Shown one piece after another: positions 364 to 34,548 of a stretch of DNA of 64,000 nt. The stretch is taken from positions 6,634,001 to 6,698,000 of the forward strand of contig NZ_CP109031.1 of assembly GCF_036226925.1 (NCBI RefSeq). The letters run 5' to 3'. Within the stretch, counting starts at the first letter, position 1. Every line of letters begins with the position of its first letter. The position numbers were made by a program, and so were the translations under genes. The notes beneath the pieces are model-generated. The model saw nothing but the letters and a program-made list of their open reading frames with translations, was not told where the DNA came from and did not search any database. The DNA comes from Streptomyces sp. NBC_00659 (GTDB lineage: Bacteria; Actinomycetota; Actinomycetes; Streptomycetales; Streptomycetaceae).

Positions 364-786
364 TTAGTTGAGAAGGCTGCCCTGGAGCTCCGCACGAAGG
401 TCCGGAGTGAGAACCGTGCCCGCACGGTCCACCAGAAGCGCCATCTCGTACCCAATGAGACCGATGTCCGCCTCAGGGTGTGCAAGTACTGCGAGTGAAG
501 AACCATCCGAAACGGACATCAGGAAGAGGAATCCTCGCTCCATCTCCACAACGGTCTGGTTCACGTGGCCGCCCTCGAAGATACGGGACGCGCCCGCGGT
601 CAAAGAGGTCAGACCGGACGCGACGGCTGCCAGCTGGTCGGCGCGGTCGCGGGGAAAGCCTTCGGACATAGCCAGAAGGAGTCCGTCGGCGGAGACCACC
701 ACTGTGTGCGACACCCCGGGGGTGTTGTCCACGAAGTTGGTGATCAACCAGTTCAGGTTCTGTGCCGCCTGGCTCATCGGGCTCAC
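364..786 (-). CDS. cvnB2: Conservon protein CvnB, roadblock/LC7 domain
   Basis: 140-residue roadblock/LC7 (MglB-like) protein. Such proteins act as GAP or scaffold for the small GTPase of the same conservon. The roadblock core is visible as HTVVVSADGLLLAMSEG followed by the hydrophobic strand GFLFLMSVSDGSSLAVL. The gene begins 2 bp after the cvnA2 stop, so it is likely translated from the same mRNA; starting at the second Met (MSQAAQ) is also possible. It is 133/140 identical to the paralogue at 5440-5862, and the first 73 residues are identical. The seven differences all lie in the second half, including H74/N76 changing to A/A. Confidence 0.93.
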   Translation of the reverse strand: MSPMSQAAQNLNWLITNFVDNTPGVSHTVVVSADGLLLAMSEGFPRDRADQLAAVASGLTSLTAGASRIFEGGHVNQTVVEMERGFLFLMSVSDGSSLAVLAHPEADIGLIGYEMALLVDRAGTVLTPDLRAELQGSLLN

Positions 787-5439: not shown

Positions 5440-5862
5440 TCAGTGAAGCAGACTGCCTTGTAGTTCGGCACGCAGGTCCGGCGTGAGGACGGCGCCCGCA
5501 CGGTCGACGAGCAGTGCCATCTCGTAGCCGACGAGGCCGATGTCGCATTCCGGGTGGGAGAGGACCGCGAGAGACGATCCGTCCGAAACCGACATCAGGA
5601 AGAGGAAACCGCGCTCCATCTCCACGACCGTCTGGGCCACCGCACCGCCTTCGAAGATCCGGGAAGCCCCGGCAGTCAGCGAAGTGAGTCCGGAGGCGAC
5701 GGCCGCCAGTTGGTCCGCGCGGTCGCGGGGGAAGCCTTCGGACATCGCCAGAAGGAGTCCGTCGGCGGACACGACGACGGTGTGGGACACCCCGGGGGTG
5801 TTGTCCACAAAGTTGGTGATCAACCAGTTGAGGTTCTGTGCCGCCTGGCTCATCGGGCTCAA
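5440..5862 (-). CDS. cvnB1: Conservon protein CvnB, roadblock/LC7 domain
   Basis: 140-residue roadblock/LC7 protein, next to the cvnA1 stop with no gap. It is identical to CvnB2 over residues 1-73 and differs at only seven positions after that (for example a Cys in HPECDIG where CvnB2 has Ala). It is the likely GTPase-activating or scaffold partner of CvnD1. Such close identity beside strongly diverged CvnA partners suggests either gene conversion or a constraint to bind a shared partner. Confidence 0.93.
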   Translation of the reverse strand: MSPMSQAAQNLNWLITNFVDNTPGVSHTVVVSADGLLLAMSEGFPRDRADQLAAVASGLTSLTAGASRIFEGGAVAQTVVEMERGFLFLMSVSDGSSLAVLSHPECDIGLVGYEMALLVDRAGAVLTPDLRAELQGSLLH

Positions 5863-13851: not shown

Positions 13852-13923
13852 TGGCCTATGGTGTAATTGGCAACACTACGGTTTCTGGTACCGTCATTCT
13901 AGGTTCGAGTCCTGGTAGGCCAG
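13852..13923 (+). tRNA. tRNA-Gln (CTG)
   Basis: 72-nt cloverleaf. Acceptor TGGCCTA/TAGGCCA, anticodon CTG in TTTCTGGTA, T-loop GGTTCGAGTCC, discriminator G. First of five tRNAs. No CCA is encoded. Confidence 0.95.
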
Positions 13924-13967
13924 CTCGCAGAGCTCATCTGCACACGCGGAAATCCAGATCCGCACCC

Positions 13968-14040
13968 GCCCCCGTTGTGTAGCGGCCTAGCACGCTGCCC
14001 TCTCACGGCAGTAGCGCCGGTTCGAATCCGGTCGGGGGTA
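13968..14040 (+). tRNA. tRNA-Glu (CTC), copy 1
   Basis: 73 nt. Acceptor GCCCCCG/CGGGGGT, anticodon loop CTCTCAC (anticodon CTC), T-arm CCGGTTCGAATCCGG, discriminator A. Identical in sequence to the copies at 14103 and 14293. Confidence 0.95.
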
Positions 14041-14102
14041 CAGATCCTTCCCAGGGAGGCAGTCCGGGTCGCACCCGCTGCCCCTCATGCAGGATCGCTA
14101 GG

Positions 14103-14175
14103 GCCCCCGTTGTGTAGCGGCCTAGCACGCTGCCCTCTCACGGCAGTAGCGCCGGTTCGAATCCGGTCGGGGGTA
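14103..14175 (+). tRNA. tRNA-Glu (CTC), copy 2
   Basis: Exact copy of the tRNA-Glu at 13968, separated from it by a 62-bp spacer of unrelated sequence. Confidence 0.95.
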
Positions 14176-14191
14176 CTGGTCTAAACCACCA

Positions 14192-14263
14192 TGGGCTATG
14201 GTGTAATTGGCAACACTACGGTTTCTGGTACCGTCATTCTAGGTTCGAGTCCTGGTAGCCCAG
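14192..14263 (+). tRNA. tRNA-Gln (CTG), copy 2
   Basis: 72 nt, same as the first tRNA-Gln except at one acceptor pair: TGGGCTA/TAGCCCA instead of TGGCCTA/TAGGCCA. Both sides changed, so pairing is kept. It starts 16 bp after tRNA-Glu copy 2. Confidence 0.95.
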
Positions 14264-14292
14264 CTCCGAATCTGCGGAAACGCAGGATTCAG

Positions 14293-14365
14293 GCCCCCGT
14301 TGTGTAGCGGCCTAGCACGCTGCCCTCTCACGGCAGTAGCGCCGGTTCGAATCCGGTCGGGGGTA
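14293..14365 (+). tRNA. tRNA-Glu (CTC), copy 3
   Basis: Third identical tRNA-Glu and last gene of the array, followed at 14376 by a terminator hairpin. Confidence 0.95.
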
Positions 14366-14375
14366 CAAGGTCCGC

Positions 14376-29449: not shown

Positions 29450-32400
29450 CTAGCCGGCCTTCTCCGTGAGCTTGCGCATCTTCTCGGCCTCGGCCCGCCG
29501 GGCCCCGGCGGTCTCCGCGTCCAGCCGGTCGCACACGGCGAGGACCGTGCCCGCGCGGGCCGACGCGGCCTCGTGGCGCCCCAGGTCGGCCTCCAGCCAG
29601 CCTGCCGCCAGTTCGGCGCCCGTCCGGGCACCGAGCAGCGAGTCGCCGAGGGAGGCGAACACGGTGATCGCCCGGACCATGTGCCCGAGGGCCTCCTCGA
29701 GCGCCTCCCGTACGACGGCCTCCTCCGCGTCGTCCGGTACCGAGCGCGTCACCAGGTCACCGAACTGACGGTGGGTGTGCGCGAGTTCGGCGACGAGACG
29801 GCGCCCCGCCTCGGCCTCCGCTTCCGCGTCCTCGCTTTCGACACCGTCACCGGCCCCGGACCCGTCACCGGCCCCGGACCCGTCACCGGCCCCGGACCCG
29901 TCACCGGCCCCGGACCCGTCACCGGCCCCGGACCCGTCACCGGCCCCGGACCCGTCACCGGCCCCGGACCCGTCACCGGCCCCGGACCCGTCACCGACCC
30001 CGGCGGCGCGGTCCGTCCTCGCCGCCCCGGCCTCGGACGGGCCGTCCGCTCCGCCCGGCTGTCCGGCCCCCGGCGAGTCCGTGGCGGCCGTCCGGCCCTC
30101 GGCCGCCGACGCGCACTCCTGGATCGCCTCCGCCATGAGCTCCCGCGCCTCGTCGAGCCCTCCGTCCCGCCGGGCCGCGCCCCACGCGCGTGCCCGGAGC
30201 GCGCGGACGAGCCCGTCGACGTTGCCCAGCTCGCGCCAGAGGTCGCCGGCACGGACGTACGCCTGATCGGCCTGGGCGGTCATCCCGGCGTGCGTGAGGG
30301 CCTCGGCCGCGAGGTTCGCGAGCATCGCGTGGTCGCGCTGCTCGGGCCAGTGCCGGGCCGTGTCGGCGGCGCGCAGCCAGTGCTCGGCGGCCCCGCGGTG
30401 TTCGCCGAGCTCGGTGAGACAGTCGCCGAGCCACCAGCGCGTCTGCACGATCGTGCCCTCGCCGTGCATCTCGGCGGTCAGATCCGGCAGCGCCGACTCC
30501 AGGATCTCGGCGGCCTCGGCCCACCGGCCCCGGCGGAGCAGGAACCCACCGAGGTGGTGGCGCGCCCAGGCTCCGAACGTGGCCGCCTCGCCCGCTTCGT
30601 CGGCCCAGTGCGCGGCCTCCAGGGCATGCTCCGAGGCGGGGCCGAACCGCCCGGTGGCGGCGAGCGTCTCGGCGAGCCGGAGATGCAGCTGGGCATGGCC
30701 CATCGGCTCCAGATGGGAGCCCCCGTGATCCAGCGCGTCGCGCGTCGCCCGTTCCGCCGCCTCCATGTCGCCGAGATGCGTCGCGATCCCGGCGAGCCGG
30801 GAGTCGTACTCGACGGCGAACCACGGCAGCCCCGCCGCCACGAACCCGTCGACGGCGCACCGCAGGAGTCCGGCGGCCGCTTCGGCGTCGTCGGCGCGGG
30901 CCGCGAGCTCCCCGAGCATCGCGTACGCCTCGGCGGCCCGCGACGTGAGGCCCACGTCGTCCCCGGCGTGCGCCTCCGCGAGGGCCAGCAGCTCCCGCGC
31001 GGCCTCGTCGGCGGCGGCCATGACAGCGGCCTCGGATCCGTAGCCGGAGCCGGTGTCGCTGTCGCTGGCGGAGGGCGTCTGCCCGCTCACCGCGCCGGTC
31101 TCCAGTTCGTCCACCCGGTGCATCAGCGTCCGGGCCCGGCTCACCAGCACGGACGCCGTCTGCGCGACCCCCGTCCCACCCTCCGCGAACAGGGCGAGCA
31201 CCTGCGCGCGCAGCTCCGTGACGACCTCCAGGGCCTGCGCGGACCCGCCCGCCAGCGCCTGGACGTACACGGCGCGGGAACGGGCCGCCAGCGCCTCACC
31301 CGGGTCGCCCGCCTCGGCGTACAGCCCGGCGGCCCGGTGGAAGAGCGCGGCGCCCTGCGGCCCGAGGCCCATGGCCGCGTGATCGGCGATCTCCGCGCGG
31401 TCGCGGACCGCCAACTCCTGGCCCTCGGCGGCGCGCGCGACCGCCGCCCACGCCTCGACCGCGTCCGGGTCCCGCAGCGCCGAGAGCCGCCGGGCCTCGG
31501 CGAGCAGCGCGTCCAGGCCCGGCTCGGCGGCCTCGGCCCCGGCCTCCCCCGGAGGCGCGGGCACCGGCGCCGACGGACGGGACCCGGAGCGTGCCGGGGC
31601 CGCGGAGCGAACGCCCAGCGGCAGCCGGCCGACGAGCACCGGCTGGTCCATGCGCGCGCGGGCCCGCTCACCGATGTACGACGTGCCGTTGCGCTCGTCG
31701 AACCGCGCGGCCAGCGCGAGCGCCTCCCCGCGCGCGTGCACGGCGAGTTCCGCCGCCGTCCACCCGCGCCCCGCGGGCCCGGGAACCGGCTGCTTGCCGA
31801 GCCCGAGGGCGGTCAGCCTGTCCATGGCGAGCGCCACGACCGACATGAAGTCCAGTTGGCTGCGCGGATCACCGGAGTCCGTGAAATAGGCCGGGCGCTC
31901 CGCGAGCAGCTCCAGGGCGCGCGCCTCGTTGCCGGTCAGGGCACAGAACTCCACATGGTCCGCGTACGCGCCCCGCATGCTCTCCATGGCCCGCACCAGC
32001 CGGAAACCCCGGAGATGATGGGAGCGTGCCTCCTCGATCCGTCCCAGGCGCAGCAGCGGCAGCAGGGAGGACGCGAGGATGGTGTGCGGCTCATGGGCGC
32101 AGGTGTACTCGCCCTGAAGCACCGGCGCCCACAGCTCCAGCGCCTCCTCGTCCGCGCCGCGCACCGCGCGCCACCACCCCTGCCCGTGCAGCTCGCAGGC
32201 GTGGCAGTCGGCCATCGCGTCGCGGTCCGCCGCCAGCCAGGCGGTGTACGCCCGTTCGGCGCGCTCCAGGTCGCCCAGATGGGCGGCGACGCTGAACTCG
32301 GCGCCGCGCACGGCCCGTTCGGAGTGACCGGCGAGGCGGTAGCGCCGCTCCATCTCGCCGAGCCACTTCTCTATGGAGGCGAGCGGGACGTGCGGCTGGT

Positions 32401-32713
32401 CGAGCATGCCCGCCGACATCCACTTGAAGACCCAGTGCAGGGAGTGGATCTCGAACTCGTCGAAGTCCTCCGGGTGTTCGTCCCACATGCGCAGCAGGCG
32501 CGCGAAGGGCACGAACATCTTGCCCTTCTCGGAGCTGTAGTTGTAGACCTTCAGCTGGTGTCCGAGCGCCTCGATGACGGCGAGCGGGATGTTCAGCTGC
32601 TCGGCCTCCACGAGCAGTTGCTCCGCGCGCGCGTTGCGCCCGGGGCCCTCCGGCTGCTCGTAGTTGTCCGCCATGGCCCGGCGCAGCGTGTCGAAGTCCA
32701 TGGCCGGGGTCAT
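29450..32713 (-). CDS. Large TPR-repeat protein coupled to HSP90-family gene
   Basis: 1087 residues from ATG 32713, overlapping the HSP90-like stop by 4 bp (ATGA). Rich in helical repeats of TPR type, for example HLGDLERAERAYTAWLAADR, LRLAETLAATGRFGPASEHA and QTRWWLGDCLTELGEHRGAA; I count upward of ten. Two low-complexity stretches: Pro/Ala around 355-380, and the Gly-Ala-Gly-Asp-Gly-Ser repeat at about 907-954. No enzyme domain, signal peptide or membrane helix seen, so it is a cytoplasmic scaffold or cofactor. The coupling strongly suggests it works with the HSP90-like ATPase, as TPR co-chaperones do with eukaryotic HSP90. Confidence 0.88.
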   Translation of the reverse strand: MTPAMDFDTLRRAMADNYEQPEGPGRNARAEQLLVEAEQLNIPLAVIEALGHQLKVYNYSSEKGKMFVPFARLLRMWDEHPEDFDEFEIHSLHWVFKWMSAGMLDQPHVPLASIEKWLGEMERRYRLAGHSERAVRGAEFSVAAHLGDLERAERAYTAWLAADRDAMADCHACELHGQGWWRAVRGADEEALELWAPVLQGEYTCAHEPHTILASSLLPLLRLGRIEEARSHHLRGFRLVRAMESMRGAYADHVEFCALTGNEARALELLAERPAYFTDSGDPRSQLDFMSVVALAMDRLTALGLGKQPVPGPAGRGWTAAELAVHARGEALALAARFDERNGTSYIGERARARMDQPVLVGRLPLGVRSAAPARSGSRPSAPVPAPPGEAGAEAAEPGLDALLAEARRLSALRDPDAVEAWAAVARAAEGQELAVRDRAEIADHAAMGLGPQGAALFHRAAGLYAEAGDPGEALAARSRAVYVQALAGGSAQALEVVTELRAQVLALFAEGGTGVAQTASVLVSRARTLMHRVDELETGAVSGQTPSASDSDTGSGYGSEAAVMAAADEAARELLALAEAHAGDDVGLTSRAAEAYAMLGELAARADDAEAAAGLLRCAVDGFVAAGLPWFAVEYDSRLAGIATHLGDMEAAERATRDALDHGGSHLEPMGHAQLHLRLAETLAATGRFGPASEHALEAAHWADEAGEAATFGAWARHHLGGFLLRRGRWAEAAEILESALPDLTAEMHGEGTIVQTRWWLGDCLTELGEHRGAAEHWLRAADTARHWPEQRDHAMLANLAAEALTHAGMTAQADQAYVRAGDLWRELGNVDGLVRALRARAWGAARRDGGLDEARELMAEAIQECASAAEGRTAATDSPGAGQPGGADGPSEAGAARTDRAAGVGDGSGAGDGSGAGDGSGAGDGSGAGDGSGAGDGSGAGDGSGAGDGSGAGDGVESEDAEAEAEAGRRLVAELAHTHRQFGDLVTRSVPDDAEEAVVREALEEALGHMVRAITVFASLGDSLLGARTGAELAAGWLEADLGRHEAASARAGTVLAVCDRLDAETAGARRAEAEKMRKLTEKAG
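29852..29995. repeat. 18-bp minisatellite, eight perfect copies
   Basis: GGCCCCGGACCCGTCACC repeated eight times without a mismatch, ending in a diverged ninth unit. Inside the TPR gene it encodes (GDGSGA)n. The unit length is a multiple of 3, so copy-number change keeps the frame. Confidence 0.95.
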
Positions 32714-34548
32714 CGCCGGTCGTCCTTTCCGGGGTCGGTGTGGGTGGCCCACTCCAGGAGGCCGATGAAGGCGCGGTTGAGCAGCGCCGAGTCCGCGGGC
32801 CGCAGCGGGCGCTGGGCCATCAGCAGGGCCTGTCCGTACAGGGACTCCGTGGCGGTGCCTATCAGGTCCGGATCACCGAGCGAACTGATCCTGCGGATCA
32901 GCGGATTGAGGTGGTTGAGGACCAGACGCGCGCGCGGGGCGCTGCCGCGCAGCGAGCCGAGGATGCCCGCCCACAGGTCGTCGGCCTGCTCCTCGGCCTC
33001 CGCCCGGGCCTGTTCGTGGCGGGCCGACCGGTCGTCCAGATGCAGGGCGGGCACCGACAGGGGGTGGAAGGCGCGCAGCACCACATCGCAGTTCAGCGGG
33101 TCGAGCCGGGCCCGCGCGGCCGCGAGGAATCCGGCCAGCGCCAGCTCCTCGGCCGGGTCGACCGTGTCCAGGTGGGCCGTCACGGTGTCCGCGTCCAGCT
33201 CCGAGACGGCCGTACCCGGACGGACGGCGGGCAGCGCCTCGATCAGCTCGCTGTCGTACGTGTAGCCGCCGTTGACGACCCCGACACCCTGCGCGGAGGC
33301 GATCGCCGCGACCTGCCGGTACTCCTCCACGGTCCGGGTGAAGTGGACCACCGGGTGCCGCTGCGCGAACTCCTCCAGGGACAGCCGTCCGTCGGTCGTC
33401 TCGAAGGGCAGCCACGGCAGCATCGTGCGCAGCATCTCCGCGTCGTGCCGGGCCAGCGACTTCACGCCCAGGTGATGCACGGACAGGAAGGCGGCCAGCC
33501 GTTCCGGATCGCCGGCCGCGAGTCCGGTCAGCCAGGACCGGATGCGCTCGCCCAGCGCCTCCCGTACGGCGGCGAGGGTCTCGTCCTCGTACAGCGACTC
33601 CCGCGACGCGGTGGGCCGCAGACTGTCCGTGTCGAGGACGCAGCGCACGAAGAACGCCCAGTCGGGCAGCAGCTGTTCGGCCCGCTCGGTGAGCAGCATG
33701 CCCTTCAGGTGCACACGGTGGGTCGCGCGCTGTGCGGGACTGACCGCCGTCGGCAGCACGTAGGCCACGCCCCGGATGCCCGCCAGCGGCACGTCCAGGT
33801 CGATGGAGTCCAGCGGAGTGAACCCGAACAGCTCCCGGCAGTGCCGGGCCAGGGCGACCCGCCGGCCGGAGGGGCTCGGATAGGGCCGGTCCCAGGGCGC
33901 GGGCAGGTCCGCGATCGCCTCGTCGCCGACCCGTACGTCGTACGGCAGCAGCGCGCCGAAATCGCGCGCCAGCGAACGGACCCGCTCCTCGCTCAGCCAC
34001 TCGCCGGCCCCGGCGCGCGCCACCAGATGCACGGTGGTGCCGGGTTCGGCGCGCGCCTCGTGCGGCAGGGTGCGCACCGTGTACGAGCCGTCGTCGGCCG
34101 CCGTCCACTCGACGGGCGCCGCATCGGGCATCCGGGCGCTGCGGCTGACCACCCGGATCCGCTCGGCGACGACGAAACACGCCAGCAACCCGATCCCGAA
34201 CTGGCCGAGGAAGTCCGAACGCGCCGACTCCAGGCCGTCGTTCCGCTTGGAACTGCGGCCGATGGTCGCCAGCAGACTGTGCACGTCGGACTCGGTGAGC
34301 CCGACACCGGAGTCCTCCACCCGCAGGGTCCCGCCTTCGGCGTACAGCCGAACGGTGGCCGGGGCGTCCGGCTGCTCGGCGCGCCGCGCGGTGATCGCGT
34401 CGACGGCGTTCTGCAGCAGCTCGCGCAGATAGACCTTGGGGCTGGAGTAGAGGTGATGGGAGAGGAGGTCGACCAGACCGCGCAGGTCGACCTGGAACGT
34501 ATGAGGTGACGGGGAGGCCTGGGACGGCTGTGAGGTCTGGGAGTCCAT
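32710..34548 (-). CDS. HSP90-family (HtpG-like) GHKL ATPase
   Basis: 612 residues. N-terminal GHKL ATPase: N-box LRELLQNAVDA (E43, N47), DSGVG (79-83), GQFGIGLLACF (115-125). Middle domain with the catalytic-loop motif in the form PTASRESLYED (canonical HtpG has a similar xSREx loop). The C-terminal part is short and diverged, and there is no C-terminal MEEVD. It is clearly HSP90-like but not the standard HtpG, which is usually more conserved. Operon of two with the TPR gene. Divergent from recG over 166 bp. Confidence 0.9.
   Translation of the reverse strand: MDSQTSQPSQASPSPHTFQVDLRGLVDLLSHHLYSSPKVYLRELLQNAVDAITARRAEQPDAPATVRLYAEGGTLRVEDSGVGLTESDVHSLLATIGRSSKRNDGLESARSDFLGQFGIGLLACFVVAERIRVVSRSARMPDAAPVEWTAADDGSYTVRTLPHEARAEPGTTVHLVARAGAGEWLSEERVRSLARDFGALLPYDVRVGDEAIADLPAPWDRPYPSPSGRRVALARHCRELFGFTPLDSIDLDVPLAGIRGVAYVLPTAVSPAQRATHRVHLKGMLLTERAEQLLPDWAFFVRCVLDTDSLRPTASRESLYEDETLAAVREALGERIRSWLTGLAAGDPERLAAFLSVHHLGVKSLARHDAEMLRTMLPWLPFETTDGRLSLEEFAQRHPVVHFTRTVEEYRQVAAIASAQGVGVVNGGYTYDSELIEALPAVRPGTAVSELDADTVTAHLDTVDPAEELALAGFLAAARARLDPLNCDVVLRAFHPLSVPALHLDDRSARHEQARAEAEEQADDLWAGILGSLRGSAPRARLVLNHLNPLIRRISSLGDPDLIGTATESLYGQALLMAQRPLRPADSALLNRAFIGLLEWATHTDPGKDDRR

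Follow-up and report, generated by a model that had tools for sequence, protein, structure and literature searches.

A divergent Streptomyces HSP90 of the NF010683 branch is encoded together with a near-constant TPR-like partner

Results

A divergent HSP90 gene and a large TPR-like gene form an arrangement in Streptomyces that is far beyond chance: at 87/87 HSP90 loci identified in 121 genomes of the genus, the TPR gene lies directly downstream on the same strand. Bacterial HSP90s are generally thought to work without dedicated TPR co-chaperones. The gene arrangement suggests a dedicated HSP90 partner in bacteria and, because the pairing is conserved, the two proteins are probably a dedicated two-protein system, a possibility that the earlier note on this DNA had raised. 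An HSP90 branch accompanied by a single partner of its own offers a direct experimental handle consisting of two genes.

Locus and gene boundaries

We analyzed a 64,000-nt stretch of Streptomyces DNA (the window), which encodes the pair on the minus strand (Table 1). The TPR-protein reading frame is open from a GTG at 32752 to 29450, and its 1087 residues are counted from the ATG at 32713. The ATGA overlap said to join the two genes was read directly at 32713-32710. Among 80 named loci the HSP90/TPR junction is a −4 overlap in 46 and −1 in 17, figures that are biased to small gaps since the in-frame start closest to the HSP90 stop was taken.

Table 1. Coordinates of the HSP90-TPR pair and its features in the window.
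Feature	Position	Strand	Evidence
HSP90 gene, 612 aa, N-terminal GHKL ATPase, middle and C-terminal domains	32710..34548	-	translation of the window, NF010683, AlphaFold2
TPR partner gene, encoding 1087 aa when read from the ATG; ~360-aa conserved core plus a variable C-terminal region	29450..32713	-	
ATGA, HSP90 stop overlapping TPR start	32710..32713	-	sequence
N-terminal TPR core, 387 aa modeled; WxxKW, CxAC, G...C...P and FDxRNG motifs	31553..32713	-	
C-x-x-C motif, Cys170-Cys173 (ATG-based numbering)	32195..32206	-	row conservation
Cys205, third conserved Cys of the TPR protein	32099..32101	-	row conservation
Cys257, fourth Cys of the TPR protein, actinobacterial set only	31943..31945	-	row conservation
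E43 to N47, HSP90 ATPase site	34408..34422	-	invariant in 37 rows
R316, HSP90 SRE loop	33601..33603	-	invariant in 37 rows
18-bp tandem repeat, 8.9 copies, encoding a (GDGSGA)n linker within the TPR protein	29844..30003	-	

The HSP90 protein

The window HSP90 scores 868 bits against NF010683 (cut-off 455, residues 14-606) and 178 bits against the HtpG equivalog NF003555 (cut-off 371), in agreement with its proposed divergence from HtpG, with which it shares the three-domain HSP90 fold and the ATPase residues. The GHKL ATPase motifs described earlier are all present, DSGVG, GQFGIG, E43/N47 and the SRE loop (315-317), and over 37 aligned relatives they are near-invariant: E43, N47, D79, G81, G83, G115, F117, G118, G120, S315, R316 and E317 do not vary, and Q116 and I119 are at least 90% conserved. 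R316 occupies what we take to be the catalytic-arginine position of HSP90. With these residues intact, the protein is best read as ATPase-competent. Alignment of its AlphaFold2 model (pLDDT 77.4) with HtpG, TRAP1 and Hsp90, each at full length, spans ~620-670 columns, with a large global rmsd to the solved structures. The modeled three-domain fold, the GHKL ATP site and the catalytic arginine loop place it in the HSP90 superfamily. The C-terminus reads DPGKDDRR, confirming that the eukaryote-type MEEVD tail is missing, but this is no special feature because bacterial HtpG has no MEEVD tail either.

The HSP90 itself is not new, since it belongs to the named family NF010683. Chen et al. had already reported in 2006 (PMC1525184) that Streptomyces coelicolor has a second, divergent htpG, and they list HTPG2 as 615 aa, similar in length to the window HSP90. 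The window protein is probably a member of HTPG Group C, an assignment drawn from passages of that paper and not from sequence comparison. Group C, NF010683 and the hsp90B and hsp90C paralog groups, which Press et al. 2013 (PMC3708813) set aside, are likewise divergent bacterial HSP90s that sometimes occur beside an ordinary HtpG. Unlike the window pair, they come with no mention of a partner gene in the passages of the two papers that we drew on, and a 2012 review (PMC3603443) states that HtpG had no known specific function in a streptomycete. The description of the system as new thus fails for the HSP90 and stands for the pairing: as far as searched, the near-constant TPR partner is new, and no description of it appeared among the literature matches listed (e.g., the best 12 of 611 and 15 of 102). 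The mention of PA1068 examined in this literature refers to a strain number.

Constancy of the HSP90-TPR pairing

The TPR gene accompanied 45/46 HSP90 loci in a survey of 345 genomes of the class, 80/80 named loci chosen by similarity and, by tblastn, 14/15 loci across the phylum, the fifteenth having a different short neighbor that looks TPR-like by eye; the phylum, genus, class and named-locus sets overlap. The possibility that homologues are mostly unpaired was looked for and did not occur. Among the 345 class genomes the TPR is found in 39/40 carriers of an NF010683-type HSP90 and in 3/305 others (Fisher p 9e-47, relatedness ignored). For HtpG and the TPR the corresponding co-occurrence has p 0.09, and 0/63 HtpG genes in these genomes have such a TPR nearby, which bears out the expectation that bacterial HtpG usually lacks a TPR partner alongside. 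HSP90 and TPR distances are correlated over 86 pairs (r 0.95, best of 500 permutations 0.23), with shared ancestry contributing to the value.

Thirteen of the 74 genus carriers, including the window's genome, have two pairs, and the two in the window's genome are diverged from each other. The system is dispensable, since 47/121 genus genomes have no HSP90 match. Of seven records with a long HSP90 match in a plasmid collection, six encode a homologue of the Paenibacillus TPR immediately after the HSP90; they include Paenibacillus, again with an ATGA overlap, and two Listeria. The Listeria pair appears by position to be lmo0942/lmo0941; in the literature passages retrieved, a cloned fragment includes lmo0942, and lmo0941 is listed as hypothetical, with signatures of selection.

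Exceptions are mostly TPR genes without the HSP90, found at 4/49 class loci (genomes G171, G204, G766 and the second copy of G667), as a remnant in G472, and in Actinomyces oris. They lie next to YbjN genes in three cases and otherwise next to a transposase-like gene or other genes; the link to YbjN can be adjacency or fusion. Within the genus and class surveys, G325 has the sole HSP90 over the cut-off found without a homologous TPR; the control genomes Deinobacterium chartae and Corynebacterium glutamicum also exceed the cut-off and lie outside the pairing inspection. A Pseudanabaena relative below the cut-off is followed by an unrelated gene, with a TPR protein two genes on.

The TPR partner

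Pfam TPR models remain below cut-off on the 1087-aa protein (TPR_12 20.2 bits, cut-off 30.1). Its first 387 residues are modeled confidently by AlphaFold2 (pLDDT 94.6, pTM 0.90) as a nearly all-helical chain of successive helix pairs, whose PDB neighbors are helical-repeat chains from APC/C, CNOT and LGN, one match reaching E 0.001 or better. The modeled core is thus a TPR-like helical-hairpin solenoid. The Cys170-Cys173 C-x-x-C motif is present in 78/78 actinobacterial rows, with an equivalent pair in 74/74 rows of a Paenibacillus-based set. Cys205 is found in 78/78 and 73/74 rows, respectively. Cys257 occurs in 77/78 actinobacterial rows, and at its equivalent no column of the 74 Paenibacillus-based rows exceeds 30% Cys. 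In the core model the conserved cysteines lie at helix starts and in loops and should share one edge of the solenoid. The actinobacterial and Paenibacillus-based profiles match at E 6e-57, and the TPR proteins of Paenibacillus and Listeria are just 320-353 aa. The family comprises at least 1911 homologues (8000 candidates scored).

Proposed mechanism and alternatives

Gene order, overlap, pairing, ATPase residues, the HSP90 fold, the TPR-like core fold and cysteine conservation are the observed basis on which we propose, with moderate confidence, a dedicated two-protein machine in which an ATPase-competent HSP90 acts with a TPR co-chaperone or client adaptor bearing a metal or thiol site. The first gene would supply the HSP90 of the NF010683 branch and the second, translationally coupled, its near-obligate large TPR solenoid. 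We infer a physical complex in which the ~360-aa core would dock on HSP90 and the variable C-terminal part would hold the client. The three- to four-Cys site on one edge of the core may bind metal (Zn or Fe-S) or act as a thiol switch, and could make ATPase control or the release of clients depend on the metal or redox state. More tentatively, and short of what we would call probable, this would be an old HSP90 branch that has its own Cys-gated (metal or redox) TPR co-chaperone independently of eukaryotes, with the Cys-TPR module also working with YbjN. Should the TPR prove to control the ATPase via its Cys site, evolution would have solved HSP90 regulation in a second way; the proposal, if true, would also open an uncharacterized TPR protein family.

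The TPR protein might instead be a dedicated client, a scaffold or sensor that the HSP90 folds or assembles, and no co-chaperone, which we consider rather unlikely. A one-to-one ratio of TPR to HSP90 genes, their coupled translation and their parallel divergence would all fit, and finding the TPR a few times with no HSP90 but next to YbjN, or fused to it, is expected if the TPR is the functional center. An HSP90 over the cut-off, however, was not found without the TPR except in G325, and a protein as short as the TPR of Paenibacillus and Listeria would seem too simple to fold to require an HSP90 of its own.

A role for the pair in defence or stress sensing, with an invader or damage as the trigger, was not borne out, and we judge it improbable; the earlier note had allowed for a sensing or defence-type pair. 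The GHKL domain resembles the PADLOC TmtA and restriction-enzyme (REase) models, the diverged copy in G325 has a type I restriction R-subunit-like gene ~4 kb away, and TIR, methylase and helicase genes are found close to the Pseudanabaena relative, whose C-terminus gives a weak TIR match. The PADLOC matches, however, are confined to the ATPase domain (the best, TmtA, is matched over positions 23-128 of a 1302-position model), no PADLOC model matches the TPR protein, a search of viral contigs for close relatives confirmed nothing, and the window copy sits in a gene setting conserved among many Streptomyces, with neighbors that we take to be housekeeping genes. With no real support from PADLOC, viral contigs or neighbors, this reading was dropped.

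That two unrelated functions are only co-transcribed and co-inherited, with no physical contact, is also an improbable reading: gene order alone never proves contact and A-locus orthologues have flanking synteny in common, but the pair is kept across several genomic settings (no other neighbor cluster exceeds 45 of 88 loci compared), where a genome has two copies, and also in Firmicutes, which is not easily explained by passive linkage.

Within the 64,000-nt window, no CIRCE or HAIR heat-shock operator was found at up to 3 mismatches from the consensus.

Comparison with known systems

Eukaryotic HSP90 works with the TPR co-chaperones HOP, FKBP51/52 and PP5. The window pair resembles these in combining an HSP90 with a TPR protein, but its TPR protein differs in its far greater length, its conserved cysteines and its gene position beside an HSP90 that has no MEEVD. 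In the Leptospira bat cluster, as the passages used from PMC3557215 describe it, an HSP90 gene lies directly downstream of genes including that for the TPR-domain protein BatB; the HSP90 there is named HtpG, and the Bat proteins are predicted to be vWF/TPR proteins associated with the membrane. At two loci inspected in Pseudomonas and Xanthomonas, an HSP90-like gene is directly followed by one for a 764-774 aa TPR protein, and the HSP90-like proteins score 293 and 277 bits against NF010683, below the 455 cut-off. Merging the Streptomyces and Pseudomonas TPR partners into one family was considered and dropped: hhalign detected no homology between the Streptomyces and Pseudomonas/Xanthomonas partners, and they are therefore kept apart. 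The Pseudomonas/Xanthomonas TPR family has an invariant C-x-x-C of its own.

The HSP90 and TPR proteins

The HSP90 of the window scores 868 bits against the curated NCBIfam model NF010683, 'HSP90 family protein' (cut-off 455). Its branch already has a name, and probably a described clade as well. The earlier note had described the protein as diverged from HtpG; against the HtpG model it reaches 178 bits, below the cut-off of 371. Among the best 60 of 165 matches in a PDB sequence search, TRAP1, HtpG and Hsp90 ranked highest. Full-length structures of these proteins align almost end to end with the AlphaFold2 model of the window's HSP90 (pLDDT 77.4, alignment of 29 rows; E about 1e-29), at TM 0.44-0.64 and rmsd 8-16, so domain placement differs from the solved structures. 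The ATP-site residues and SRE loop are invariant in 37 relatives, including those from Listeria, Paenibacillus, Pseudomonas and Xanthomonas. No HtpG scored above the profile cut-off in the window's genome, a single contig of 9.66 Mb.

The in-frame ATG of the TPR gene gives the 1087 aa reported earlier, and an alternative upstream GTG gives 1100 aa (P0002); residue numbers here start at the ATG and are 13 lower than those of P0002. The best named homologues are from Streptomyces. Pfam yields weak TPR matches, and the first 387 residues (the TPR core) are modelled as a TPR-like solenoid (pLDDT 94.6, 63 rows) whose PDB neighbours are helical-repeat chains. Chain O of APC/C ranks first among these (E 6e-4; TM 0.61 by query), and no other reaches E 0.001. 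Chain Heter-Zn2-HEHE-22A, which matches the TPR protein by sequence profile (E 9e-4), was given no weight.

Coordinates of features in the window, in its genome and in loci cut from other genomes or plasmids (L, own coordinates)
Feature	Position	Strand	Remarks
HSP90 gene	window 32710-34548	-	612 aa
TPR gene	window, ATG at 32713	-	in frame; ATGA overlap with HSP90 stop
18-bp tandem repeat, 8.9 copies	window 29844-30003		codes (GDGSGA)n within TPR protein; eight exact units
Second HSP90-TPR pair	window's genome 544453-548861		
CxxC-TPR without HSP90, adjoining YbjN genes	L176 4532-6609; L178 4939-7019; L109 4286-9036		YbjN domain fused to TPR in L178
P0123 gene	L008 6377-7366		about 330 aa, without Pfam match
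HSP90-TPR pair following MoxR-like and VWA_CoxE genes	L009 6240-10446; L098; L106		two are Nocardia
HSP90 of G325 with its short TPR-like neighbour	L011 8593-11369		HSP90 diverged, 32% identical to window's
HSP90 relative, Pseudanabaena plasmid	L024 7932-10565		877 aa
Diverged HSP90, then TPR protein of 764-774 aa (Pseudomonas, Xanthomonas)	L027 7881-12122; L025 7947-12170		
Five-tRNA cluster	window 13852-14366		two Gln (ctg), three Glu (ctc)
Two 140-aa ORFs	window 364-786, 5440-5862		first 50 residues nearly identical

Conservation of the pair

The two proteins, first noticed as neighbours in the window, co-occur across four overlapping sets, the counts of which are not to be summed. In the genus survey (121 genomes) HSP90 occurs at 87 loci in 74 genomes and the TPR core at 89 loci in 75; a TPR gene lies directly downstream on the same strand at 87/87 HSP90 loci, and HSP90 is present at 87/89 TPR loci. 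The class survey (345 genomes) gave 46 HSP90 loci in 40 genomes, two pieces in G772 being taken as one locus, and TPR profile matches at 49 or more loci in 42 genomes, a count that may miss some, scoring having been limited to the top five candidates of each genome. Pairing holds at 45/46 of these HSP90 loci, 17 of which fall outside the genus, and at 45/49 TPR loci. In the phylum survey (396 genomes) 15 HSP90 loci in 12 genomes exceeded the cut-off and 14 have a homologous TPR; at the fifteenth (G325) the neighbour is a different short ORF, TPR-like as judged by eye. These counts leave out the control genomes Deinobacterium chartae and Corynebacterium glutamicum, with HSP90 over the cut-off.

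The named loci are the 80 most similar to the window's HSP90 among 554 confirmed matches and are therefore mostly Streptomyces, with Kitasatospora, Embleya, Nocardia, Acrocarpospora, Virgisporangium and others. TPR follows HSP90 in 80/80. The distance from HSP90 stop to TPR start, taking the nearest in-frame start, is -4 in 46 and -1 in 17, and lies outside -10 to +20 in three (-103, +109, +250). Complete TPR proteins (73/80 loci) span 648-1222 aa (median 989), and core-sized ones occur in Paenibacillus and Listeria (353, 324 and 320 aa).

Genuine HtpG, with one gene in each of 63 of the 345 class genomes, had a TPR nearby in 0/63 cases, the nearest on one contig being 178 kb away, and tblastn found no TPR match in five HtpG loci, each about 14 kb long. 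TPR is present in 39/40 carriers of the NF010683 HSP90 versus 3/305 non-carriers (Fisher 9e-47), and in 12/63 HtpG carriers versus 30/282 others (p 0.09), both ignoring relatedness. The TPR tracks the NF010683 HSP90 and not HtpG. These observations are most simply explained by a private machine in which the HSP90 would work with a TPR co-chaperone or adaptor; as the chief alternative, the TPR protein may be the client. Among the open-access literature matches listed, we found no description of the pairing, the partner family or its cysteines.

TPR genes without HSP90

A lone TPR in G171 adjoins a transposase-like gene (named by eye), and G472 holds a remnant, a 31-residue HSP90 stub running into a TPR piece. 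A YbjN gene (PF10722, 93 and 99 bits) lies directly upstream of the TPR in G204 and in the second G667 copy, and the latter TPR protein itself ends in a YbjN domain (63 bits). Two YbjN-like genes precede the TPR of Actinomyces oris, one at 33 bits and the other, at 18.6 bits, under the cut-off of 22. YbjN may substitute for HSP90 as the TPR partner. In G766, a photolyase and a cyclic-nucleotide-binding gene flank the TPR. The C-x-x-C is kept in 5/6 of these TPRs; in the G472 remnant, the match begins after that position.

Conserved cysteines

Four of the eight cysteines of the window's TPR protein lie within the core. C170, C173 and C205 are conserved in 78/78 actinobacterial rows (77/80 named loci, three short ones dropped, plus the window) and C257 in 77/78. 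A Paenibacillus-based set of 74 rows, Listeria, Hyalangium and numerous unnamed sequences among them, has cysteines equivalent to the first three in 74, 74 and 73 rows and one more, at its own position 68, in 68; its profile matches the actinobacterial one at E 6e-57. In the model C170 and C173 lie where helix 171-184 begins and C205 sits in the loop past helix 188-199; given an antiparallel hairpin, we infer that they would share one edge of the solenoid. The Pseudomonas/Xanthomonas-type partner also has a C-x-x-C, among five cysteines found in 115/115 rows (5/120 dropped as short), but hhalign detected no homology to the window's TPR. A homologue of this partner is present in a 12-kb Nonomuraea locus (L180), with no HSP90 match alongside.

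Second copies, neighbours and plasmids

Two pairs per genome occur in 13/74 genus carriers. In the window's genome the second-copy TPR is 34% identical to the window's. Neighbours were compared at 88 loci (the 80 named and eight others). The window's type of pair adjoins a gene that we take to be recG-like in 45/88, the maximum, with no other neighbour cluster common to more loci. P0123 lies just upstream of HSP90 in 11/88 and forms a three-gene cluster with HSP90 and TPR at the second locus. At the MoxR-like/VWA_CoxE loci, MoxR was named by eye and VWA_CoxE by Pfam (L009 scanned only).

Searching a plasmid collection with HSP90 gave 7 records whose match covers 80% or more of the query. With the Paenibacillus TPR as query the number was again 7, six of these HSP90 records plus Actinomyces oris; in the six shared, S. 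chartreusis among them, TPR is directly downstream of HSP90 by coordinates. In the remaining HSP90 record, from Pseudanabaena, the next gene is unrelated and a 474-aa TPR protein is encoded two genes on. The HSP90 relative there has a weak C-terminal TIR-like match (below cut-off), with genes for a TIR protein, a helicase and a DNA methylase beside it. In G325, a type I restriction R-subunit-like gene lies about 4 kb from HSP90. Elsewhere in the window, each of the two 140-aa ORFs that are alike in their first 50 residues has a long ORF beside it, an arrangement resembling a duplicated operon.
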